This document shows, piece after piece, positions 7,807 through 46,756 of a stretch of DNA of 47,745 nt. The DNA is taken from NCBI GenBank assembly GCA_003643835.1, contig QMKX01000012.1, positions 1 to 47,745 on the forward strand, written 5' to 3'. The notes under the pieces were generated by a model. It was not told the origin of the DNA. It saw only the letters and a list, made by a program, of their open reading frames with translations, and ran no database searches. Position numbers and translations under genes: made by a program. This stretch comes from Campylobacterota bacterium. GTDB taxonomy: Bacteria > Campylobacterota > Campylobacteria > Campylobacterales > Arcobacteraceae. Numbering within the stretch: the stretch's first letter is position 1; the number at the start of each line of letters is the position of its first letter.

Positions 7807-8185
7807 AAAAAAATATGGTGAATTAGAAGTAAATCAGTTTGATATAAATAACCCACAAAATTTTTGGCCAAATACACATAAAAAAAACTACAAGATAAAC
7901 ATAAAACTACCTGAATTTATGTGTAGGTGTCCTATGAGTGGGTATTTTGATTTTGCTACTATTTATATACAATACATTCCAAATTCTTTGGTTATTGAAC
8001 TAAAAGCACTGAAGCTTTATATAAATAGTTTTGCTTCAAAATACATATCTCATGAAAATTCATCAAATGAGATATATGATACTATTTATGAAAAACTCCA
8101 ACCAAAAAAACTAAAACTCACGGCAGTGTTTAATCCAAGAGGAAATGTAAGCACAAAGATTGTGATAGATAGCGAAGATATTTAA
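7796..8185 (+). CDS. queF: NADPH-dependent preQ0 reductase QueF
   Basis: It reduces 7-cyano-7-deazaguanine (preQ0) to preQ1 on the way to queuosine in tRNA. At 129 residues it is the short, unimodular type. The nucleophile C45 and proton donor D52 lie in RCPMSGYFDFATI. ELKALKLYINSF and ISHENSSNEIYD are the substrate and cofactor signatures, and FNPRGNVSTKI matches the usual C-terminal strand. Its start overlaps the end of fba by 11 bp, so it is probably read from the same transcript. Confidence 0.92.
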   Translation: MKNKKKYGELEVNQFDINNPQNFWPNTHKKNYKINIKLPEFMCRCPMSGYFDFATIYIQYIPNSLVIELKALKLYINSFASKYISHENSSNEIYDTIYEKLQPKKLKLTAVFNPRGNVSTKIVIDSEDI

Positions 8186-8214
8186 AATATACTCAAGACA
8201 CCTCTAGAACATCT

Positions 8215-8721
8215 CTAATTTTCTAAATTATCCTTGATATAATTATATATAATTTTTGCATCGTCTTGGGTTACTGACTTGGCTACAGGCGACATCAAAT
8301 ATGCATTGTTTGAGCTTATCTCATCTCTTGCATATTGCGATAGTCTATGCTGGAAGTCATCAAATTTTTTGTATTTTAACAAATCCTTATCACTTTTTTT
8401 GTGGCATCTTTTGCATCTTGTGTCAAACAATTTTTTTGCTATTTTTTTGTCTGTTTTCAACTTGATAGGTTTTGCTATATTTTGTTTGTTATTGACAAAT
8501 ATATATACAAAGTTTAACTTTTCGTTAGTTTTATTTGTTTGTATATCTTTTACAAACCATCCATCGTCAAGCATATTTTTGATAGTCTTGCCAACACATT
8601 CATCGCCTTCAAGTATAGCAGTTTTCATCATCGATGGTGTAGTAACAGCTTCTTTGTAGCATAAAATAGCTTTAGCGTTTAGTGATATTACAAACAATAA
8701 TATATAGAAAAAAACTCTCAT
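8215..8721 (-). CDS. Periplasmic monoheme c-type cytochrome
   Basis: This 168-residue protein has a signal peptide (MRVFFYILLFVISLNAKA), a cysteine-containing domain of about 75 residues, and a C-terminal cytochrome c domain. C103-x2-C106-H107 (CKRCH) binds heme, and the methionine in YLMSPVA is the likely sixth ligand. The ATG at 8721 is used; it overlaps the sppA stop (TGATG), indicating coupling. The redox partner is not evident. The 29-bp gap between its stop and the convergent queF stop shows no strong hairpin. Confidence 0.8.
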   Translation of the reverse strand: MRVFFYILLFVISLNAKAILCYKEAVTTPSMMKTAILEGDECVGKTIKNMLDDGWFVKDIQTNKTNEKLNFVYIFVNNKQNIAKPIKLKTDKKIAKKLFDTRCKRCHKKSDKDLLKYKKFDDFQHRLSQYARDEISSNNAYLMSPVAKSVTQDDAKIIYNYIKDNLEN

Positions 8722-9596
8722 CAATATGCCTTCAAGCTTGAAGTATACAATTGTATTGATTTGATTAAACTTGTATTGACTTGTTTCACAAATTTTTCAA
8801 ACCTATCCTCTTCTTGCCATACTGGTTTATCAACTTTTGCTTTTTTTATCAAAAATTCTTTAGCTTTTGATATGGTAGCTACTTCATCTATGAGACCGAT
8901 GTCTTTAGCTTGTCTTGCTGTAAATATGTGACCATCTGCGAACATATTTTTGTCGATTTGTAGTTTTCTTGCTTTTAAAACATCGTCTACAAACATATCG
9001 TATGTATCATTTATAACTTTTGATAACTCCTGCTTTTCTATATCATCCCATGCTCTGGCGCTTGTGCCTACACTTTTATATTTACCTGCTTTTATTGTTT
9101 GAGTTTCAATACCGATTTTTTCCATAAGTTTTTCTGTGTTGATACCACTTATAATGACACCGATACTGCCTACAATACTGCCAGGATTTGCTATTATTTT
9201 AGAGCTATACAAGCTAGCATAATAGCTACCACTTGCTATCACACCGCTAGCATAAGATACCACCGGTTTAAGTTCGTTTAGTTCTTTTATAGCATAAGCA
9301 ATCTCAACAGACGCATCTACAGCGCCTCCGGGCGAGTTTATTTTTATAAGCACCCCTTTTATATTCTCGTCATTTTTAATTTTGTCAAGTTGTTTTATGA
9401 TATTGTCCGATAAAATTATAGGACCGACTATTTCTACTTGAGCTAAATTAGCGCTTGCGGTGCTCAATGTTTCTTTGTCAATATTTAAAACTATATACAA
9501 TAATATCGTGAAAAATAAAACAGATTTAAAGTTTCGTTGAACAAATCGTATTGGTGCTGTTATTGGTAAAAATATTTTTTCTATGAAGTTTATCAT
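8721..9596 (-). CDS. sppA: Signal peptide peptidase SppA (short form)
   Basis: This 291-residue membrane-bound serine protease degrades cleaved signal peptides. One transmembrane segment (about 24-40) is followed by a crotonase-like protease domain. The Ser/Lys dyad is probably S122 in IASGSYY and K174 in AGKYKSVG. INSPGGAVDAS is the usual oxyanion/binding loop. It is the single-domain type, as in Bacillus, rather than the double-length E. coli form. It overlaps the DUF59 gene upstream by 4 bp and the cytochrome gene downstream by 3 bp. Confidence 0.92.
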   Translation of the reverse strand: MINFIEKIFLPITAPIRFVQRNFKSVLFFTILLYIVLNIDKETLSTASANLAQVEIVGPIILSDNIIKQLDKIKNDENIKGVLIKINSPGGAVDASVEIAYAIKELNELKPVVSYASGVIASGSYYASLYSSKIIANPGSIVGSIGVIISGINTEKLMEKIGIETQTIKAGKYKSVGTSARAWDDIEKQELSKVINDTYDMFVDDVLKARKLQIDKNMFADGHIFTARQAKDIGLIDEVATISKAKEFLIKKAKVDKPVWQEEDRFEKFVKQVNTSLIKSIQLYTSSLKAY

Positions 9597-30859: not shown

Positions 30860-31306
30860 ATGAAAAAAATTTTATTGGTATCTCTTTTGTCGTTGAGTCT
30901 TTTTGGGCTTACGATAGGCGACAAATTAGATGGCAAAACTATCAAAACTTTGAAACTGAAATCTAATATCATATATGTAGTTGATATTTTTGCTTCTTGG
31001 TGTCATAGCTGCAAAAAAGAGTTACCTTTAGTTTCAAAACTAAACAACACCATAAACAAAACAAAATATGAGATAATTGGTATAGATATAGACGAAGATA
31101 AAAAGATAGGTATCAATTTTCAACAACAAGTTGCAGTGAATTTTAGAGTTATAAATGATGATAAAAATGTCATAGTTAAGACATTTGCTCCTGTAGGCAT
31201 TCCTGCTTTGTATATCATAAAAAATGGTCTTATAATAGACGAAATTATTGGTGCTGTTGACAAGATAGATACAGTTATAAACAAAAAATTGGCAAAAATA
31301 AAATGA
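30860..31306 (+). CDS. Exported TlpA-like thioredoxin
   Basis: This 148-residue protein has a signal peptide (MKKILLVSLLSLSLFGLTIG) and a thioredoxin fold. The redox motif is W-C48-HS-C51-K in FASWCHSCKKELP, and the cis-proline is in VGIPALYII. It should act as a disulfide reductant or resolvase in the periplasm. Its stop overlaps the ATG of the DUF4266 lipoprotein (ATGA), so the two are coupled. The likely partner is the CxC-containing lipoprotein encoded next. Confidence 0.88.
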   Translation: MKKILLVSLLSLSLFGLTIGDKLDGKTIKTLKLKSNIIYVVDIFASWCHSCKKELPLVSKLNNTINKTKYEIIGIDIDEDKKIGINFQQQVAVNFRVINDDKNVIVKTFAPVGIPALYIIKNGLIIDEIIGAVDKIDTVINKKLAKIK

Positions 31307-31518
31307 AAACAAGAGTTTTAATTTTGTTTTTGCTGATGATAAACGGATGCGCCATAAAAGATGTCAAATCTTGGGAAAAATCAAAACTATCAAAAGATAG
31401 TATGAGCGAAGCTGGTATAAACAATAACTTCAAAGCTTTTAAAGAGCACATATATTTTTCAAAAGAAGCTACAAGAGTTGGCAACACTATAGGTGGTGGA
31501 GGTTGCGGATGCAACTAA
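31303..31518 (+). CDS. DUF4266 lipoprotein with C-terminal GGGGCGCN
   Basis: This 71-residue protein has a lipoprotein signal peptide ending MINGC, with lipidated C16. The conserved DUF4266 parts follow: VKSWEKSKLSKDSM and HIYFSKEATRVGNTIGG. The chain ends GGGGCGCN, with C68 and C70 as a CxC pair two residues from the C-terminus. A terminal CxC could hold a metal, form a disulfide that the neighbouring thioredoxin reduces, or be modified; none of this is shown. The codons for the Gly/Cys tail include GGAGG, which serves as ribosome binding site for the next gene. Confidence 0.85.
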   Translation: MKTRVLILFLLMINGCAIKDVKSWEKSKLSKDSMSEAGINNNFKAFKEHIYFSKEATRVGNTIGGGGCGCN

Positions 31519-32639
31519 AATACAAACTATCTGTTGTTGCTTTTTTAGCTGCTAACTCACTATGTGCTGACGATACTGTGTCTATATCTATGATGAGCTA
31601 CAACGAAAACGACAATCGTGTTGATATAAAAGCACCAGCTATAACCGTAAACAAAGATTTTGGTACGGATTACGCTTTGAGCGCGGGTGTGGTTTATGAT
31701 GCAGTTTCTGGTGCGAGCCCAAATTTTGTAGATACAAATAGTGGAGCTTCGGCTTATTCTCGAGGCAACACAACCCAAGCAAATGTGAAAAAAACAAATG
31801 TCAAATTTGAAGAGAAAAGAACAGCTATAAATGCTATTTTGACTACAAGATTTGACAATAGAGATGAATTGAAAAGTGGATTTAATTTTTCTTCTGAGAG
31901 TGATTATTATTCTATGGAACTTAGCCAAGATTATCTACACTATTTAGATGACAACCACAACCAATCATTGAGTTTTGGTTTATCTGGACAAACAAATCAA
32001 ATATTAGTATACTGCAAAAACAACAGCAAATGTGACACAAATAGTGGCGCAAGCGAAAAATTTAACTCAAATAACTACAAAGCAAGTATAGGTTTTAGTC
32101 AAGTTATAGACAAAAGCAGTATCGTCAATAGTTCTTTATCGTTTGTAAATGAAAGTGGGTATTTAACAAATCCATATCTAAATGTAGTGAGAAACTACAA
32201 CACAGCTCCAGAAGTAACAAATGAAAACAGACCTCAAAAGCGCACAGGTTATGGTGTTTTTGTCAAATACCTTAAAATTTTTGATAAGTTTAGTTCAAAT
32301 ATAAGTTATAGGTATTATGGTGATAATTGGCATATAAATTCACACACTATTGATACAAATGGCTATTATGAATTTGGCAAACTTACTATAGGGGCGGGAG
32401 TTAGACACTACAAACAATCAAAGGCAAAATTTTATAGTGGGCTGGTTGACTATTTTACAAATCAAAAATATGCGAGCAGCGATGAAAGGTTGAGTGATTT
32501 TGATGCCACTACTTATAAAGTTATGGTTGATTACAGATTAACAAATAGTATAAATTTGAACTTGACGGCTGATTATTATGATCAAAGCACTGGATTGAAA
32601 GCTACGACTTTTATGAGCGGAATAAAATACAAGTTTTAA
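31509..32639 (+). CDS. DUF3570 outer-membrane beta-barrel-like protein with three DxxSGAS motifs
   Basis: This 376-residue protein has a signal peptide (to about NSLCADD) and many alternating strands, and it ends in GIKYKF with a terminal Phe, as outer-membrane barrels do. It carries DAVSGAS (64-70), DTNSGAS (75-81) and DTNSGAS (176-182). These fit the D-x-x-S/T-G-A-S/T pattern to which ApbE attaches FMN, and an ApbE homologue is the next gene. FMN attachment is an inference. The ATG at 31509 is preferred over a TTG at 31503 because GGAGG lies six bases ahead of it. It overlaps the DUF4266 gene by 10 bp. Confidence 0.85.
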   Translation: MQLKYKLSVVAFLAANSLCADDTVSISMMSYNENDNRVDIKAPAITVNKDFGTDYALSAGVVYDAVSGASPNFVDTNSGASAYSRGNTTQANVKKTNVKFEEKRTAINAILTTRFDNRDELKSGFNFSSESDYYSMELSQDYLHYLDDNHNQSLSFGLSGQTNQILVYCKNNSKCDTNSGASEKFNSNNYKASIGFSQVIDKSSIVNSSLSFVNESGYLTNPYLNVVRNYNTAPEVTNENRPQKRTGYGVFVKYLKIFDKFSSNISYRYYGDNWHINSHTIDTNGYYEFGKLTIGAGVRHYKQSKAKFYSGLVDYFTNQKYASSDERLSDFDATTYKVMVDYRLTNSINLNLTADYYDQSTGLKATTFMSGIKYKF

Positions 32640-32641
32640 AA

Positions 32642-33484
32642 TTGAAACATATTTATATATTTGAGATTATGACAACTCCTTGTGAATTGCAACTTTTTCA
32701 CAACAATAAGCAATTTTGCAACGATGTTGCAAAAAAAGTTTTAAAAGAAGCTAAAAGATTGGAGCTTAAATACAACTATTTTGATAAAAACTCTTATCTT
32801 TCTAAAATAAATGCGAGAGTAGCAAATGTATTGGATTTAGAAACAAAAGAGTTATTAAAAAAATCTAAAAGATATTATATATCTACAGATTATATTTTTG
32901 ATATCACTTTAGCTACTATAAAAGATATTTATTTATCAAACAACATAAAAAAGTTTTCTCAAGAAAAAGATCGTTTGTTAAAATATGTAGGATGTGAAAA
33001 TTTTGAAATAAAGAAAAATAAAATTTATTTTTCAAATGTTTTCACTAAAATTGATTTTGGTGGTGTGGTCAAAGAATATGCAGTTGACAAGGTTGTGAAA
33101 ATTATAAAAAAACATAAAATCAAATCAGCTTTGATAAATTTTGGCGGAGATATTTTTGCGATTGGAAAAAAAGAAAATGGCGACAAGTTTAAAATTGGTA
33201 TAAAAAATCCGTTTGAAAAAAAACAAAATTTAACTTATGTGGAGATTATGGATGAAGCTTTGACAACTTCAGCTTCTTATGAACGAAGTTATGTTATACA
33301 AGATAATAATTTTTCTCATATAATTTCCAAAGAAAACACAAAAAGCAATATTTTGTCAGCTACAGTAGTGTCAAATAGCTGCTTAAATAGCGGCGTGTAT
33401 TCTACTTCTTTGATGATAAACGATTTGCTGGATGTGCCATATAAAAGAATATTGGTTCATAAAGATTTGAGTATAACAAATTGA
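32642..33484 (+). CDS. apbE: ApbE-family FAD:protein FMN transferase (variant)
   Basis: ApbE enzymes move FMN from FAD to a Ser/Thr of a target protein. This 280-residue homologue keeps MTTPCELQLF (the usual MGTP position), KIDFGGVVKEYAVDKV, ALINFGGDIFAIGKK and DEALTTSASYERSY. Two features are odd. No signal peptide or lipobox precedes the domain, although most ApbE proteins are exported. The ADAxxT segment that supplies a magnesium-binding Asp reads NSGVYST here, with Gly in place of Asp. The start is TTG, 2 bp after the DUF3570 stop, with no clear ribosome binding site. The last base of its TGA lies inside the next gene. Confidence 0.82.
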   Translation: MKHIYIFEIMTTPCELQLFHNNKQFCNDVAKKVLKEAKRLELKYNYFDKNSYLSKINARVANVLDLETKELLKKSKRYYISTDYIFDITLATIKDIYLSNNIKKFSQEKDRLLKYVGCENFEIKKNKIYFSNVFTKIDFGGVVKEYAVDKVVKIIKKHKIKSALINFGGDIFAIGKKENGDKFKIGIKNPFEKKQNLTYVEIMDEALTTSASYERSYVIQDNNFSHIISKENTKSNILSATVVSNSCLNSGVYSTSLMINDLLDVPYKRILVHKDLSITN

Positions 33485-34155
33485 AAATATTTATAGTTGA
33501 AGATGACAAAAAGATAGCTTTATTTTTAAAAAAAGGTTTACAAGAGGAGTTTTATAGTGTAGATATTTCAAACAATGCAGAAGAAGCCATATATTTAGTG
33601 CAAACAAATAGATACGATTTGATTATCTTGGATATTATGCTACCAAAGCTCAATGGCATAGAGCTATGCAAAATAATTCGTCAAAAAAACATAGACACAC
33701 CTATAATCATGCTAACCGCAAAAAATAGTATTGAAAACAAAGTTGAAGGATTAAACGAAGGAGCAAATGATTATCTTACAAAACCATTTTCATTTGATGA
33801 ACTTTTAGCGCGAATAAAAGTTCAACTACGAATCAATAAATCACTCACAAACAGATTAAAAATAGCAGACTTAGAATTAGATTGTGATACATTAGAAGCC
33901 AAGCGAGCAGATATCAAGATAGAGCTTACATCAAAAGAGTATTCTTTGCTTGAGTTTATGATGCGCAACAAAAACAAAGTTTTGAGTGTACAGATGATAA
34001 ATGATAACATATGGAATATAGACGAAATAACAGCGAACAATATTGTAAATGTATATATTTATCGACTGCGAACAAAAATAGATAAAATTTTTGATTTAAA
34101 ATTGATACATACTATACGAGGAGTTGGATATAAAATTAGCGACAAAAATATCTAA
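33481..34155 (+). CDS. OmpR-type response regulator
   Basis: This 224-residue protein has a receiver domain (IVEDDKKIA; phospho-acceptor D51 in IILDIMLPKLNG; Lys in YLTKPFSF) and a winged-helix domain ending in HTIRGVGYKI. It starts with TTG at 33481, overlapping the apbE stop (TTGA), so it is part of the same operon and may control it. Its kinase partner directly downstream is broken. Confidence 0.9.
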   Translation: MKIFIVEDDKKIALFLKKGLQEEFYSVDISNNAEEAIYLVQTNRYDLIILDIMLPKLNGIELCKIIRQKNIDTPIIMLTAKNSIENKVEGLNEGANDYLTKPFSFDELLARIKVQLRINKSLTNRLKIADLELDCDTLEAKRADIKIELTSKEYSLLEFMMRNKNKVLSVQMINDNIWNIDEITANNIVNVYIYRLRTKIDKIFDLKLIHTIRGVGYKISDKNI

Positions 34156-34174
34156 AAATATCTAAACAAAACTT

Positions 34175-35502
34175 TTGTTTTGGTATTTGATACTTATCAT
34201 CTCAATTTTGTTTGGCTTTAGCTATAGTCTTATATATTTATTTCAAAAAAGTTATATAGAAAAGATTGACACAAAATTAAATGCTGTGGTTCTTGATGTA
34301 AAAGATGACTTTAAAGAGAAAAAAACAAGAACGGCTACTACACGATAGACGAAGGTGATAAATTTATAATCAAACCATTTTATGCGCTTATTTTAAAAAT
34401 AGGACAAAAAAAATATCTATTATAACAAAATCACCGAATTTAAAACAAAATATATTGCCTATAAAAAAAGAGCTTTATGATAAAATTATTGAAAATCAAA
34501 CTTTGTTTTATGATACCACTGATAACCTAAGAGTTGTCGTTTTTTTGCTCGAAAAAACAAACGATTATAAATATATAGTGCAGGCCTCTACTAAATTTGA
34601 AACCGGCAATGAAACTATAAAAAGATTAAAACTTACACTTATTGTTTTAAATCCTATCATACTTTTTTTATCTTTAATTGCTGGCATATTATTTATCAAG
34701 AATGCCTTAAAACCAGTTGCTAAAATAGTAAAAAATGTGCAAGATATTGAGGCTAAAGATTTATCAAAAAGAATAGACAGAATAAATAGTGACGATGAAA
34801 TTGATAATTTAATCATAACATTTAACAATATGCTTTCAAGGTTGGAAAGTGGATTTAAAAATATAAAAAGGTTTAGTCAAAATGTCTCTCATGAGCTAAT
34901 AACTCCACTTACGATTATAAGAGGTGAGATAGAAGTGGGTCTTAGAAAAAAAAGAAAACATAATGAATATGAAAAGATATTAAATCAAGCTTTAATTGAA
35001 ACAAAAACCTTGCAAAAAAGTATTGATAATCTTCTATTTCTATATTCTTTTGATAAAAATGAGATAAAAAAATCATTTAAAGAGTTTTATTTAGACGAAT
35101 TGGTAACTGAAATTTTCTTAGAGAAACAAAAACTATCTAAAACACGAAGTATAATTTTGTCGCTTATTAATATAAACCAGTCACAATAAATTCTGACTAT
35201 AATTACTCAAAATTGCTATCAACAATTTGATTGACAATACGATAAAATATTCGTATACAAATACAAAAATTGAAATTGCTTTAAAATTAAATACCTTGAC
35301 TATCAAAAATTATAGTGAAGGCATAAACAAAAAAGATTTACCATTTGTTTTTGAACAGTATTACAAAGCAGACAACAATAAAAAACAAGAGGGATATGGC
35401 TTGGGATTATCAATCGTGAAAACGATTATGGATATTTGTGATTTTGAAATAGATATAAAAAGCAAAATCAACAAATACACAACTGTTATCATAAGCTTCT
35501 AA
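34175..35502 (+). pseudogene. Sensor histidine kinase broken by four frameshifts
   Basis: The pieces together make a normal kinase: a membrane segment (LFWYLILIISILFGFSYSLI), a sensor, a second membrane segment near 34630-34695, a HAMP linker, the H box (FSQNVSHELITPLTIIR), the N box (LIDNTIKYS) and GYGLGLSIVKTI. The frame breaks near 34320, 34405, 35173 and 35225. At each point adding one A to an A-run restores continuity. A TAA at 34163-34165 also interrupts a frame that would otherwise extend the N-terminus (TKLLFWYL). The longest intact piece is 34455-35189. Either the gene is decaying, or the assembly has local one-base errors. Confidence 0.82.
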
Positions 35503-37003: not shown

Positions 37004-37375
37004 ATGGAAGATTTTATAAAACAACTACAACCAAATAAAATGCCGGAACTTATGCTAAAAACTGAAGAGTTTTTGGAACTTATGAAAAATAGTGGGGCTG
37101 TATTCGTAGATATAAGAGCAAAGTTTGAGACAGATATATGGGCTATGAGTTTTGGACTGAAAATCCCACTTCACAAGCTACCAGACAACTTGGAGCTACT
37201 TCCCAAAGATAAACTTATAGTATGTGGCTGTCCAAAATCCGATAGAAGTATCATAGCTGTAGCTTATCTAAACAGCATAGGCATCAAAAGTGCCTATTTA
37301 AAAGACGGTATGCTTGACCTTACACGACACTTGATAGGCGGCAGGGCAAAATCATTTCAAATACCAAATGTCTAA
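37004..37375 (+). CDS. Single-domain rhodanese-like protein
   Basis: This 123-residue protein has a rhodanese fold (AVFVDIRAKFETDIWAMSFG). The active loop C76-PKSD-R81-S fits the C-x4-R-S pattern, and a second cysteine, C74, lies two residues before. It has no signal peptide, so it is cytoplasmic. It probably carries persulfide sulfur; the acceptor is unknown. It lies 1 bp after argJ and overlaps the flavoprotein gene by 8 bp. Confidence 0.82.
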   Translation: MEDFIKQLQPNKMPELMLKTEEFLELMKNSGAVFVDIRAKFETDIWAMSFGLKIPLHKLPDNLELLPKDKLIVCGCPKSDRSIIAVAYLNSIGIKSAYLKDGMLDLTRHLIGGRAKSFQIPNV

Positions 37376-38882
37376 TATATTTGATACTATAGTTGTAGGT
37401 AGTGGCATAGCTGGTTTAACCGCAAGCATAAAAGCCTCATCGTATGGTAAAAAAGTGGCTATAATATCTAAAAATAAAACAACTTCAAGCCAAAGCACAC
37501 AAGCTCAAGGCGGTATAAATGCTACTACAAATAAAAATGACACAGATATATTTATCAAAGATACTATAAAATCATCTCACGATATATACGACAAAAAAGC
37601 CATAAGCTATATGTGCGAAAATAGCGACCGTGCTATAAGGTGGCTCGATGATATAGGAGTGCCATTTAGCAAATTGGATGACGGTGGGTTTGCTACGAGA
37701 AAACTGGGTGGCTCACAAAGTAGCAGGACATATTATAGCAGCGACTACACAGGCTTGAAGATAGTTCAAACACTTTTTGATCAAGCTATCAAAATGGGTG
37801 TTGAGTTTTTTGAGTTTTATTTTTTGCTTGATATTATTATAGAAAACAACACAGCAAAAGGTGTCGTGCTGCTTGATATCAAAACTTCACAAGTTATTCA
37901 ATTGTATGCTACCAATATTGTGCTATCTACTGGCGGATATGCTGGTATATATGCAAAAAATACAACAAATAGTGTTGATACTACTGGTGATGGTGTGGCA
38001 GTTGCTTTGAAAAATAACTTAAAACTTTCAAATATGGAGCTTGTTCAGTTTCATCCTACATCTATGAGTAGCTCACACATACTTATAAGCGAAAGTGCTA
38101 GAGCACAAGGTGGGCATTTGGTAAATAGTGCTGGCAAAAGATTTGTAGATGAACTAAAACCACGAGATGAAGTATCAAAAGCTATATACGAACAGATACA
38201 AACAGGACAAAAAGTGTATTTAGATATGCGACATATAGAATCAAAGACTATACAAGAGACTATGCCACAAGAGAGGGAATTGGCTTTGAGATTTGCTGGT
38301 GTTAAATTGGAAAGCCAACTACTACAAATAGAACCATCAGCACACTATAGTATGGGTGGAGTTTCAGTCGATACACAAGGCAAAACTGCTATCAAAAATC
38401 TATATGCTATAGGTGAGTGTAGCGATACAAATATACACGGGGCAAATAGATTAGGTGGTAATTCTTTGCTGGAGTGTGTTGTATTTGGCAAAACTGTAGG
38501 CAAACTTTGTGCTACAAATCAAGACAAAGTATTGTCAATAAAAAACGATAAATTGCAACACAATAAAATAAAAATAGATAAAATATTTGAAAAGAAACCA
38601 ACTACAAACTTCTATGATATCAAAGACAAATTAAGCGAAATTCTAAACCAAAACATAGGCATAGTGCGAGACGAGCAAGGAGTTTTGAAAGCTATAAAAA
38701 ACATAAACAAACTTCAAAAAGATTATGACAACACATCTATCGAAGACAAGCACAGAGGATTTAACAACACGATAGTTCAGTTCTTACAGCTTGGCAACTC
38801 GCTATTGATAGCGCACAAGCTTGCAGTATCGGCACTAAATCGTAAAGACACCGCAGGCTCACACATAAGAAGCGACAAGTGA
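37368..38882 (+). CDS. Fumarate reductase/succinate dehydrogenase-like flavoprotein
   Basis: This 504-residue protein has the FAD-binding GSGIAGLTASIKA at the N-terminus. Substrate-site segments are ESARAQGGHLVN and DELKPRDEVSKAI, and HYSMGGVSVD and GGNSLLECVVFG lie in the C-terminal part. At the place where FrdA/SdhA carry the FAD-linked histidine (before the AEGG-type motif) there is Gln, Q42, so FAD is probably not covalently bound. L-aspartate oxidase (NadB) is the alternative, but the iron-sulfur subunit encoded next, overlapping by 4 bp, favours a fumarate reductase-like enzyme. It may reduce fumarate or oxidise succinate with an unknown partner. Confidence 0.8.
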   Translation: MSNIFDTIVVGSGIAGLTASIKASSYGKKVAIISKNKTTSSQSTQAQGGINATTNKNDTDIFIKDTIKSSHDIYDKKAISYMCENSDRAIRWLDDIGVPFSKLDDGGFATRKLGGSQSSRTYYSSDYTGLKIVQTLFDQAIKMGVEFFEFYFLLDIIIENNTAKGVVLLDIKTSQVIQLYATNIVLSTGGYAGIYAKNTTNSVDTTGDGVAVALKNNLKLSNMELVQFHPTSMSSSHILISESARAQGGHLVNSAGKRFVDELKPRDEVSKAIYEQIQTGQKVYLDMRHIESKTIQETMPQERELALRFAGVKLESQLLQIEPSAHYSMGGVSVDTQGKTAIKNLYAIGECSDTNIHGANRLGGNSLLECVVFGKTVGKLCATNQDKVLSIKNDKLQHNKIKIDKIFEKKPTTNFYDIKDKLSEILNQNIGIVRDEQGVLKAIKNINKLQKDYDNTSIEDKHRGFNNTIVQFLQLGNSLLIAHKLAVSALNRKDTAGSHIRSDK

Positions 38883-39538
38883 ATATCGAAGTAATAGAAA
38901 AAAAATACAACATCATAGCCAAACCAACCACCGTCTTGGGTGCTTTGAAATATATCAAACAAAACATAAACCAAAGCTTGACATACAATAGCGCATGCAA
39001 AAGTGGAGTTTGTGGATGTTGTGCTGTTGTTGTAAATGGTATTGAAAAGTTAGCTTGCAACACAACCATAAAAGATGGCGACAAAATAGAGCCGTTGGCA
39101 AACAAAAGAATATATAGAGATTTGGTAGTCCAACCTACACAAAAAAATATACTAAAAAAAATCAAAAGTTATCTTATAAAAAAAAGCGATGAAACTATCA
39201 CCACGCAAGATGAAAAAACAATAGATATCTTAAGCAACTGTATATTGTGTAGTAGTTGTCAAAGTAGTTGCCCTGTATATACTATAAACCCTAACTTTAT
39301 TGCACCTTTTGTATATGTGAGAGCTTTGAGATATATAAATGACAAAAAAGAGATAGAAAAAAATTCACGGCTTGAAGCTATACAAAACGATGGCATATAC
39401 GACTGCACTTTGTGTGGCAACTGCGATATGGTTTGCCCTGAAGATATACCCATAAAGGATAGCATCAATAGTTTGCGAAACAAAAGTGTACAAGCTGGAC
39501 ATATGCCACCTATGCCAGACAATTTTATGACTTTTTAG
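38879..39538 (+). CDS. Fumarate reductase/succinate dehydrogenase-like iron-sulfur protein
   Basis: This 219-residue electron-transfer subunit starts with GTG. A plant-type [2Fe-2S] site is formed by C40, C45, C48 and C60 (CKSGVCGCC). C121-x2-C124-x2-C127-x3-C131-P is a [4Fe-4S] site. A third set, C176-x2-C179-x2-C182-x3-C186-P, has a cysteine where FrdB/SdhB normally have none, so it could hold a second [4Fe-4S] instead of [3Fe-4S]. No cytochrome b or CCG-domain anchor gene follows; the next gene is on the other strand. Confidence 0.82.
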   Translation: MNIEVIEKKYNIIAKPTTVLGALKYIKQNINQSLTYNSACKSGVCGCCAVVVNGIEKLACNTTIKDGDKIEPLANKRIYRDLVVQPTQKNILKKIKSYLIKKSDETITTQDEKTIDILSNCILCSSCQSSCPVYTINPNFIAPFVYVRALRYINDKKEIEKNSRLEAIQNDGIYDCTLCGNCDMVCPEDIPIKDSINSLRNKSVQAGHMPPMPDNFMTF

Positions 39539-43695: not shown

Positions 43696-44670
43696 ATAAC
43701 TATAAAAGAAGCGATACTCAAAAGTCTTGATGATATGAAAAGATTATCAACAGCCGATGAAATATATCAAAATATTTTAGAGAAAGGTTATAGTAAATTT
43801 AACAAAGGTAAAACACCTAAAAATTCAGTAGTCGCATTGTTGTTTTATTTTATACGAGACAACGATGAAAGAGTCAAAAGAGTCAAAGCCGATGGCAACT
43901 ATTATCTGTATTATCTTACTAAACATGAACAAGAAATTAATATGACAGAAACACAAACCAAACAAACACCAAAAACAAAAGAGACAAAACAAACATATCA
44001 TGAGCGAGACCTACATAAACTTTTGAGTAGTTGGCTAAAAAACAAAAATATTTACAGCAAGACAATCTTGCATGAAATATCAAAAAATAGCAAAGATGAG
44101 CATCAAAAATGGATACACCCAGATATGGTAGGAGTGGAATTTTTGAAACTCAAGACAGACACGACCAAGTCTTTCATGAAAAATCTAAATATATTAGACA
44201 CTATCAAACTATATTCATATGAGCTAAAAAAGGAGATAAGAAACGACCACGAGCTAAAAAAGTGCTACTTCCAAGCAGTATCAAATTCAAGCTGGGCAAA
44301 CTATGGTTATCTTGTAGTATTTGAGATAGACGACAACCTAAAAGATGAGATAAACAGACTTCATCAGTCGTTTGGCATAGGAGTTATAGAGCTAAAAGCA
44401 AATCCATACCAAAGCAAGATATTGCATATAGCTAAATACAAAGAACTTGACTACAAAACTATAGACAAACTATGTTTTGTAAATAAGCACTTTAAAGAGT
44501 TTATAGGTTATGGTCACAATATGCTAACTATAGAGGAAATAAATTTTAAACATATTGAAAATAGTTTTGATAAATTTTGCGATAAGTATTTTATAAATGA
44601 CAATGAAATAAATGAGCATAATGATAAATACAACATACCATACAACAAGGACAAAAGTGAAACCATATAG
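43696..44670 (+). CDS. HARE-HTH protein with PD-(D/E)XK-like C-terminus; ATA at the start position
   Basis: The N-terminal domain reads TIKEAILKSLDDM at 43699-43737, then LSTADEIYQNILEKG and GKTPKNSVVALLFYFI, a good match to the HARE winged-helix domain. The codon expected to be ATG, seven bases after AAGGA, is ATA (43696-43698), and a stop lies just upstream. The first ordinary start is ATG 43735, which would lose the first helix. After a Thr/Lys-rich linker, WIHPDMVGVEF and LYSYELKKEI resemble the PD and ExK parts of a nuclease fold. The function is unknown; DNA binding is likely. The 3' end overlaps ovoA by 14 bp. Confidence 0.72.
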   Translation: MTIKEAILKSLDDMKRLSTADEIYQNILEKGYSKFNKGKTPKNSVVALLFYFIRDNDERVKRVKADGNYYLYYLTKHEQEINMTETQTKQTPKTKETKQTYHERDLHKLLSSWLKNKNIYSKTILHEISKNSKDEHQKWIHPDMVGVEFLKLKTDTTKSFMKNLNILDTIKLYSYELKKEIRNDHELKKCYFQAVSNSSWANYGYLVVFEIDDNLKDEINRLHQSFGIGVIELKANPYQSKILHIAKYKELDYKTIDKLCFVNKHFKEFIGYGHNMLTIEEINFKHIENSFDKFCDKYFINDNEINEHNDKYNIPYNKDKSETI

Positions 44671-46756
44671 CCTAAATACAATATCTTTAAGTGGCAATGA
44701 TAAAAATAAAAAACGACAAGAGATAAAAGAGTATTTTATAAATACTTTTGATATATATGAAAGTTTGTTTGATATGTTTGTAGATGATGAAGTGTTTTAT
44801 ATCCAGTCTGAGCGAACAAGGCACCCTATGATATTTTATTATGGACATACTGCTACTTTTTTTGTAAACAAACTTATAAATATGAGCATCATACACCAAA
44901 GGATAAATCCAGATTTTGAGTCGATTTTCGCTGTAGGTGTAGATGAGATGACATGGGATGATACAAACAAAGCTAACTATATATGGCCTAGTGTTAATGA
45001 TGTGCGAGAGTATAGACAAAAAGTGCGAGAGTTTGTGTGCAAGCTTATAGACAATATCAACTTTAGCTTGCCTATCACCCCAAATAGCGATATGTGGATA
45101 GTGCTTATGGGTATAGAACATGAGAGGATACATATAGAGACATCGTCTGTGCTTCATAGGCAGCTACCTATAAAATATATCAAAGATATGCCTGAATTTA
45201 ATATATGTGAAACATCGCACAAAATTATCACAAATAGCCTTGTAGATATAAAAAAACAAAATATAAAGTTAGGGATAGATGATGCACACCATCTATATAG
45301 TTGGGACAATGAATATGGCGACTTTCAAGAGGTGGTGGATGATTTCAAAGTAGCTAAATATCTAGTTTGCAACAAAGAGTTTTTGGAGTTTATGCAAAAC
45401 GATGGTTATGTTACAAAAAAGTATTGGTGCGAAGATGGTTTGAACTATCTCAAAAAGACAAATGCCACTCACCCTGCTTTTTGGATCAAGCACAAAGACA
45501 CATACAAATACAGGGCTTTGGGTGCTGTCATAGATATGCCGTGGAATTTTCCAGTAGATGTCAATGCCTTAGAAGCAAAGGCTTTTTGTGTCTATAAAAG
45601 CCATAAAGACAAACTAAACTACAGTTTGCCAAGCGAAGCTCAACACAAAGCTATATGTCAAAGTGTGAGCTTGAAAAATATACCCCACTTTGATAGCACA
45701 AAAGCAAATCAAAACTTAACTTCTTATAGCTCATGCGATATAGACCGTCATAGTTTTGATGGCATTTATGATGTAGTAGGCAATGTATGGCAGTGGTCAA
45801 GTACTGCTATATTTGGCTTTGATGGTTTCAAACCACACAAGGCTTATGATGATTTTTCTACTCCTACATTTGATGGCAAGCATTATATTATGAACGGCTC
45901 ATCGTGGGCAAGTAGTGGCAACTTAATATCTACTACTTCACGATATGCTTTTCGAGAGCATTTTTATCAGCATAGCGGATTTAGATATATTGTCCAAGAC
46001 AAAAAAACTATGACAAGGCAAGACAACATATACGAAAGTGATAGTTTAGTTCATCAGTATTGTGAATTTCAATACGGGCAAACATATTTTGGAGTGGAAA
46101 ATTTTGCTATAAGTTGCACAAAAATAGCCAAACAATATGCTACAAATACAAGCAAAGCACTAGATCTGGGTTGTGCTACAGGTAGAGCTTCGTTTGAGTT
46201 GGCAAAGATATTTGACCAAGTTGTTGGGGTTGATTTTTCTGCTCGATTTATAAAAGTTGGCTCAAATTTGAAAAATGACGGAATTATAAGCTACTATAAC
46301 ACAACTGAAGGGGAATTAAAAACAAAAAAAGAGATAACACTGGAGCAGTTAGGATATGAAAAACTCAAAGATAAAGTCCAGTTTTGGCAAGGCGATGCTT
46401 GTAATTTGAAACAACGATTTACAAACTATGACTTGATACTCGCTATAAACTTGATAGATAGACTTTATGCTCCTAGGGATTTTTTGGAAAACATAGACCA
46501 ACGACTAAATAAAAATGGAGTGCTTATAATCACTTCGCCATATACTTGGCAAATATCATCTACAAAAAAAGAGTTGTGGTTAGGTGGCTACAAAGACGAA
46601 AGTGGTAAAGATATATATACGATAGATACTATGAAAAATATACTTGAAAAAAAGTTTGAGTTGCTTCATATACAAGATTTGCCATTTGTCATAAAAGAGA
46701 CAAACAGAAAGTATCAGCATACTGTATCGCAAGTTACCGTTTGGAGGAAAAAATAA
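44657..46756 (+). CDS. ovoA: OvoA: 5-histidylcysteine sulfoxide synthase with methyltransferase domain
   Basis: OvoA joins cysteine to C5 of histidine using iron and oxygen, and its C-terminal domain later N-methylates 5-thiohistidine to ovothiol A. This 699-residue protein shows all parts. A DinB-like domain carries the iron ligands H64 (YYGHTATFF), H155 and H159 in HERIHIETSSV. The FGE-sulfatase-like domain is about 185-450 (GIYDVVGNVWQWSSTAIFG, GFRYI). A SAM methyltransferase spans about 480-699, with motif I at 502-510 (LDLGCATGR). GTG at 44657 is chosen over an ATG at 44612 because AAGGA lies five bases ahead. The lyase gene follows after 1 bp. Confidence 0.92.
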   Translation: MKPYSLNTISLSGNDKNKKRQEIKEYFINTFDIYESLFDMFVDDEVFYIQSERTRHPMIFYYGHTATFFVNKLINMSIIHQRINPDFESIFAVGVDEMTWDDTNKANYIWPSVNDVREYRQKVREFVCKLIDNINFSLPITPNSDMWIVLMGIEHERIHIETSSVLHRQLPIKYIKDMPEFNICETSHKIITNSLVDIKKQNIKLGIDDAHHLYSWDNEYGDFQEVVDDFKVAKYLVCNKEFLEFMQNDGYVTKKYWCEDGLNYLKKTNATHPAFWIKHKDTYKYRALGAVIDMPWNFPVDVNALEAKAFCVYKSHKDKLNYSLPSEAQHKAICQSVSLKNIPHFDSTKANQNLTSYSSCDIDRHSFDGIYDVVGNVWQWSSTAIFGFDGFKPHKAYDDFSTPTFDGKHYIMNGSSWASSGNLISTTSRYAFREHFYQHSGFRYIVQDKKTMTRQDNIYESDSLVHQYCEFQYGQTYFGVENFAISCTKIAKQYATNTSKALDLGCATGRASFELAKIFDQVVGVDFSARFIKVGSNLKNDGIISYYNTTEGELKTKKEITLEQLGYEKLKDKVQFWQGDACNLKQRFTNYDLILAINLIDRLYAPRDFLENIDQRLNKNGVLIITSPYTWQISSTKKELWLGGYKDESGKDIYTIDTMKNILEKKFELLHIQDLPFVIKETNRKYQHTVSQVTVWRKK

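Follow-up and report, generated by a model that had tools for sequence, protein, structure and literature searches.

The closest described system is the four-gene set published by Méheust et al. 2021 (eLife, PMC8238504), the only paper found by a full-text literature search for DUF3570 or DUF4266. Its running text counts 227 DUF3570 clusters in which DsbD is present and 316 ApbE/DUF3570/thioredoxin/DUF4266 clusters lacking an adjacent DsbD, already remarks the CxC end of DUF4266 and leaves the function of the DUF3570 system open. According to the same text, the DUF3570 protein of Chlorobium luteolum is flavinylated upon co-expression in E. coli, and this is abolished only when both motifs are mutated; the co-expressed protein was signal-truncated, cytosolic and mostly found in the insoluble pellet, yet it was flavinylated. 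The multi-flavinylated FMN_bind proteins described in that text likewise bear several covalent FMN and are exported; however, they repeat the FMN_bind domain, whereas DUF3570 lacks this domain and has bare motifs in a barrel. As to the flavin transferases, the text of the review PMC12052999 reports that most known ApbEs with envelope substrates act in the periplasm, and that cytosolic ApbEs serve cytosolic fumarate reductases. Cytosolic ApbEs are not known to serve exported substrates.

The window (i.e., the whole stretch of DNA analysed, 47,745 nucleotides) contains a member of this described system, in a triple-site variant. The preliminary description knew of no described function for the set; that the set itself is undescribed is not supported, as it was published in 2021. 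The features considered below are the following:

30860..31306, + strand: exported TlpA/ResA-like thioredoxin, active site WCHSC (Cys48, Cys51), cis-Pro IPA
31303..31518, + strand: lipoprotein of the DUF4266 family with lipobox INGC, C-terminal GGGGCGCN, CGC encoded at 31504-31512
31509..32639, + strand: DUF3570, predicted 16-strand outer-membrane barrel, in-frame TTG upstream at 31503
31698..31718, + strand: motif 1 of DUF3570, DAVSGAS at residues 64-70 with acceptor S70, in the upper part of strand 3
31731..31751, + strand: motif 2, residues 75-81, DTNSGAS, end of strand 3 and loop b3-b4
32013..32033, + strand: cysteine pair C169...C175 (C-x5-C) immediately ahead of motif 3, the mature barrel having no other cysteine
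32034..32054, + strand: motif 3, residues 176-182, DTNSGAS, loop b7-b8
32642..33484, + strand: signal-less ApbE flavin transferase, with Ser210 and His226 retained and the usual Asp replaced by Gly251 (33392-33394)
33481..34155, + strand: OmpR-type response regulator, overlapping the end of apbE
34155..35502, + strand: histidine kinase remnant with frame changes and stops

The four core genes (thioredoxin, DUF4266, DUF3570 and ApbE, in that order) overlap their neighbours or lie at most 2 bp from them. This compact arrangement, noticed at the outset, is confirmed by the coordinates and by the Pfam families, i.e., PF00085/PF13905 for the thioredoxin, PF14086 (2e-15) for DUF4266, PF12094 (3e-61, 208 bits vs. 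a gathering cut-off of 25) for DUF3570 and PF02424 (1e-50, 173 bits) for ApbE, all of them well over the cut-offs. The window set and the published system (named «DsbD») have in common the clustering of the same four families and the [ST]GA[ST] motifs in DUF3570. They differ in that: (i) the published homologue has two motifs whereas the DUF3570 of the window has three, the third being preceded by a cysteine pair; (ii) the published thioredoxin accession is PF13899, that of the window protein being PF00085/PF13905; (iii) DsbD is clustered in the published DsbD subtype, whereas the window set has no adjacent DsbD and a single DsbD_TM protein is encoded elsewhere in the genome. DsbD adjoins the set in several relatives. 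The running text of the published account, figures and supplements aside, states neither that DUF3570 is an outer-membrane barrel nor that ApbE is signal-less. With respect to that text, the additions made here include the invariant acceptor of motif 1, the triple-site variant and the cysteines that go with it, the predicted side of the barrel on which the sites lie, the Asp-to-Gly replacement in ApbE and the lack of a signal peptide in ApbE; priority for this last point is not certain.

The CGC terminus is found in 62/62 clustered DUF4266 neighbours. The most likely start codon of DUF3570, ATG 31509, is embedded in the GGA-TGC (Gly-Cys) codons of this CGC motif, and an in-frame ATG within TGY-GGA-TGY recurs in 60 of 89 DUF3570 homologues. 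DUF3570 and DUF4266 are thus probably translationally coupled. It must be noticed that this embedded ATG, the C-x5-C before motif 3 and the lack of a signal peptide in ApbE were all missed in the preliminary description.

Residue numbers of the DUF3570 motifs are counted from ATG 31509. Shuffled DUF3570 sequences contain 0.003 strict motifs on average, with a maximum of 1 in 20,000 shuffles, as compared with 3 observed; occurrence by chance of the three D-x-x-S-G-A-S motifs first reported is thus rejected. DUF3570 is patchy in Campylobacterota (11/397 genomes positive), and 80 DUF3570 loci were gathered from one genome per species, besides these 397 genomes. Among 74 aligned sequences, motif 1 has a Ser or Thr acceptor without exception (74/74); its Asp is conserved in 71 (Glu in the other 3) and its Ala in 68. 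The conservation among homologues on which the initial proposal depended is found for the acceptor of motif 1. Three strict motifs are present in 20 of the 74 sequences, two in 1, one in 42 and none in 11. All 20 triple-motif proteins belong to one Campylobacterota clade, which includes the window protein; those of Gammaproteobacteria, Betaproteobacteria and Acidobacteriota have one strict motif or none. The 11 sequences with no strict motif mostly show a one-letter change (e.g., TGSS, SGGT, TAAS), the acceptor not being lost, and some relatives (L046, L057) have a fourth motif-like site. Three flavin sites in the window DUF3570, conserved in its clade, are plausible, and so is the initial estimate of up to three FMN. 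The initial designation of DUF3570 as the likely ApbE substrate is supported by (i) the invariant acceptor, (ii) the flavinylation of a homologue (PMC8238504), (iii) the presence of a single ApbE in the genome, and (iv) the absence of FMN_bind (PF04205) from the window DUF3570 and from its genome. One genome (G358, loci L020 and L030) has two triple-motif DUF3570 copies and one adjacent apbE, whose transferase may serve both. Split PF12094 matches in three relatives could be taken for broken DUF3570 genes; this was rejected, each being a single open frame.

In most of the triple-motif clade, motif 3 is immediately preceded by two cysteines. Of the 29 DUF3570s that carry motif 3 or a closely similar sequence, 11 lack cysteines and 18 contain two or three. 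Each of these 18 sequences includes a pair at or directly before motif 3, typically C-x(n)-C-D-x-x-S-G-A-S, which represents the only cysteines of the mature protein in 16 of them. The 60 DUF3570s without motif 3 contain no cysteine (49 sequences), one (10) or two (1). This all-or-none pairing in the sequences suggests a disulfide or a dithiol beside the third flavin. C169 and C175 may be either an electron relay or a mere holder of the loop.

AlphaFold2 was run on the mature DUF3570 of the window, with 73 homologues as further input. The window model has 16 strands (mean pLDDT 93.4, pTM 0.88), and the C-terminal residue is Phe. An even number of strands, a Sec signal and an aromatic C-terminus thus come together in this prediction, as for an outer-membrane barrel; the initial assignment, made from a barrel-like C-terminal Phe, is in agreement with the model. 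Outer-membrane barrels of the PDB are aligned with it from the first to the last residue. The best match is the BamA barrel (Z 21.7, rmsd 3.6 over 273 residues), and further matches are PelB (Z 21.6), BcsC, CymA and OmpG. These matches reflect a shared generic fold and are uninformative on the function of DUF3570; no solved structure is related to DUF3570 by sequence.

The two sides of the model differ markedly, with turns of 2-6 residues on one side and loops of 15, 17, 26 and 27 residues on the other. All three motifs are on the long-loop side. The long-loop side of outer-membrane barrels is normally extracellular, and by this general rule the motifs of the model would face the cell exterior. 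The Asp and the acceptor Ser of motif 1 are in the lumen-facing register, as judged from the alternation of hydrophobic residues. Alignment columns with an entropy below 1 bit fall almost without exception within the loops of the long side or within upper strand segments, and these segments are better conserved than the lower segments (2.12 vs. 2.51 bits, permutation p 0.001). The model of a distant clade B protein (L097, with some 27% identity to the DUF3570 of the window) also has 16 strands, with sites at strands 3-4 and on the same side.

The ApbE of the window begins nine residues ahead of its own domain and has no signal peptide. For comparison, 78 distinct DUF3570-linked ApbEs were set against 28 unlinked ones, drawn either from the same phylum or, in many cases, from genomes that also encode a linked one, a signal-like stretch being defined as an 11-residue hydrophobicity mean of at least 2.2 within at most 60 residues before the ApbE domain. 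Such a stretch is present in 0/78 linked vs. 22/28 unlinked ApbEs (medians 0.65 vs. 2.7, p 1e-10), the 78 linked proteins not counting as independent events since they may be one lineage. The measure, based on hydrophobicity and length, is cruder than SignalP and misses some weak signals: the signal peptides of DUF3570 themselves score from 1.24 up, only 63/89 of them reaching 1.8, and 15 linked ApbEs score 1.24-2.2, several of them through long GC-rich upstream frames. The maximal extension before the domain is at most 20 residues in 57/78 linked vs. 1/28 unlinked ApbEs, and the sole unlinked exception (L124) belongs to the linked type. A signal peptide hidden by a wrong start codon was rejected as well, none being found in up to 60 upstream residues when start codons were ignored. 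In a quick tree the signal-less ApbEs have two origins (the main clade and clade B); a single clade is not rejected (AU test p 0.46), and no convergent origin is therefore claimed. The ApbE of Klebsiella fumarate reductase is likewise signal-less in the text of PMC12052999, but its substrate stays cytosolic whereas here it is an exported barrel.

One check proposed initially was that the motifs be conserved only beside apbE. As worded, it fails: motif 1 is also kept in barrels without adjacent apbE. Among the 14 genomes with such a detached DUF3570, 9 have a signal-less ApbE of the linked type elsewhere; the other 5, some of which are incomplete bins, have a truncated ApbE (1), signal-bearing ApbEs only (2) or none (2).

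The active-site residues of ApbE were placed by comparison with the aligned chains of TM1553 and FmnB. Ser210 and His226 of the window protein align with the family. The Asp that in characterised ApbEs belongs to the Asp-Ser-His triad or metal site (Vc D285, FmnB D301; PMC12052999) is replaced by Gly in 61/61 aligned linked ApbEs of the main clade (Gly251 in the window), whereas it is Asp in 14/14 linked ApbEs of clade B and in 22/28 unlinked ones. This Gly251, at a position thought to be catalytic, counts against the reading preferred below. A signal-less ApbE of the Gly type (L124/L178, genome G056, 7987-8814) is encoded next to the gene of a small Ser-rich protein, in a genome with no DUF3570 match; it is possibly an orphan with another substrate.

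The reading we prefer, with about even confidence, is a triple-site module in which FMN is loaded in the cytosol, the protein is exported by Sec, the flavins face outward and thiol electrons pass outward. ApbE, having no signal peptide, would transfer FMN from cytosolic FAD onto Ser70, Ser81 and Ser182 of the DUF3570 precursor while this is still unfolded. The flavin-loaded precursor would then be exported through Sec and inserted as a 16-strand barrel into the outer membrane, its flavins lying at the rim that faces the cell exterior. The TlpA-like thioredoxin, whose reductant is probably DsbD, would reduce the CGC lipoprotein DUF4266 in the periplasm, and DUF4266 in turn would pass electrons to the flavins of the barrel; the cysteine pair by motif 3 may act as a relay. 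The end result would be the reduction of something outside the cell. Cytosolic flavinylation is the simplest account because the sites would be out of periplasmic reach after insertion and ApbE has no recognisable export. We infer the timing before export, the electron path, its outward direction and the acceptor. The published co-expression result, obtained in the cytosol, is consistent with flavinylation before export. The presumed thiol partnership advanced in the preliminary description would be in keeping with the TlpA-like protein, the CGC lipoprotein and the cysteines of the loop.

MtrCAB is a porin-cytochrome conduit, i.e., a barrel with redox cofactors, a periplasmic partner and a multiheme cytochrome. 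The likeness drawn here is that of a barrel with cofactors and a periplasmic partner, for which a passage of electrons across the outer membrane is proposed. The difference is in the cofactors, which are hemes in MtrCAB and predicted flavins here, the four window proteins having no CxxCH. A more general proposal is tentative, and we would sooner doubt than assert it: that there are outer-membrane proteins loaded in the cytosol with up to three covalent FMN and passed through Sec, forming a heme-free conduit fed by periplasmic thiols, with flavins exposed at the cell surface and one of them paired with a disulfide.

The main rival to a respiration-like export of electrons is an uptake-linked metal reductase. 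The barrel would be a reductive uptake channel, a flavin at its outer vestibule reducing a metal or a complex (e.g., ferric iron) for uptake. The invariant polar and aromatic residues on the motif side of the barrel would suit such a channel, and the VIT1 iron transporter is present in 25 DUF3570 clusters according to the text of PMC8238504. The response regulator by apbE resembles the heavy-metal cztR/silR/copR subfamily, but with 234 bits it is under the cut-off of 279. Moreover, the set of the window has no metal transporter next to it, and the recurring neighbours are two-component, DsbD and CxxCH genes; we consider this reading possible but rather unlikely. It is still less likely that the signal-less ApbE reaches the periplasm otherwise, flavinylation and electron transfer then being periplasmic as in the published DsbD model. 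The periplasm is indeed the usual site for known ApbEs with envelope substrates, as reported in the text of PMC12052999. However, the linked ApbEs start at their domain or a few residues from it, the sequence ahead of the start codon has no hydrophobic stretch either, and the motifs would be unreachable once the barrel is inserted, if the predicted side is correct.

In about one third of the loci a histidine kinase or a regulator is encoded within 6 kb, so that the flavins and loop cysteines might be thought to form a redox sensor, or a loop staple, with the two-component neighbours as output. This is quite improbable, as the kinase of the window is broken while the four core genes are intact, and the regulators near the set have no single conserved arrangement. 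Finally, the motifs might be unmodified and ApbE might serve an unrelated cytosolic protein, as the cytosolic ApbEs of fumarate reductase do (text of PMC12052999) and as the signal-less ApbE of G056, with no DUF3570 match, may hint. The tight linkage and co-occurrence of DUF3570 and ApbE, the invariant acceptor of motif 1, the genome without FMN_bind protein and the homologue flavinylated by experiment (text of PMC8238504) make this highly improbable.

If flavinylation precedes export, as in the preferred reading of cytosolic loading, the usual picture of envelope flavoproteins matured by a periplasmic ApbE would be overturned, and export of FAD would be unneeded in these bacteria. Sec and the barrel-assembly machinery would then accept a precursor bearing several FMN groups; Sec is said, after work by Bonardi et al. 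in 2011, to tolerate bulky attachments. A barrel with outward flavins would mean heme-free surface redox chemistry for deep-sea and for sulfur-cycling Campylobacterota.

The kinase at 34155-35502 has at least 2 frame changes with stops and is intact in relatives, which points to decay or to an assembly error; in three relatives (L021, L022, L049) a regulator and a kinase are downstream of the set. CxxCH neighbours are found in the loci of 12 relatives, mainly of clade B, where CxxCH lipoproteins are encoded upstream of the thioredoxin gene (L025, L028, L031, L084, L085, L096, L097, L106). In clade B loci a second porin-like gene often follows the set, as does a small gene of periplasmic-binding-like type. 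Elsewhere in the window, 37368-39538 encodes a short FrdA/NadB-like flavoprotein (504 aa), which is under each of the named NCBIfam cut-offs listed, and an FrdB-like iron-sulfur protein. At 44612-46756 is found OvoA (a 5-histidylcysteine sulfoxide synthase-methyltransferase fusion), i.e., an ovothiol gene in a small Campylobacterota genome.
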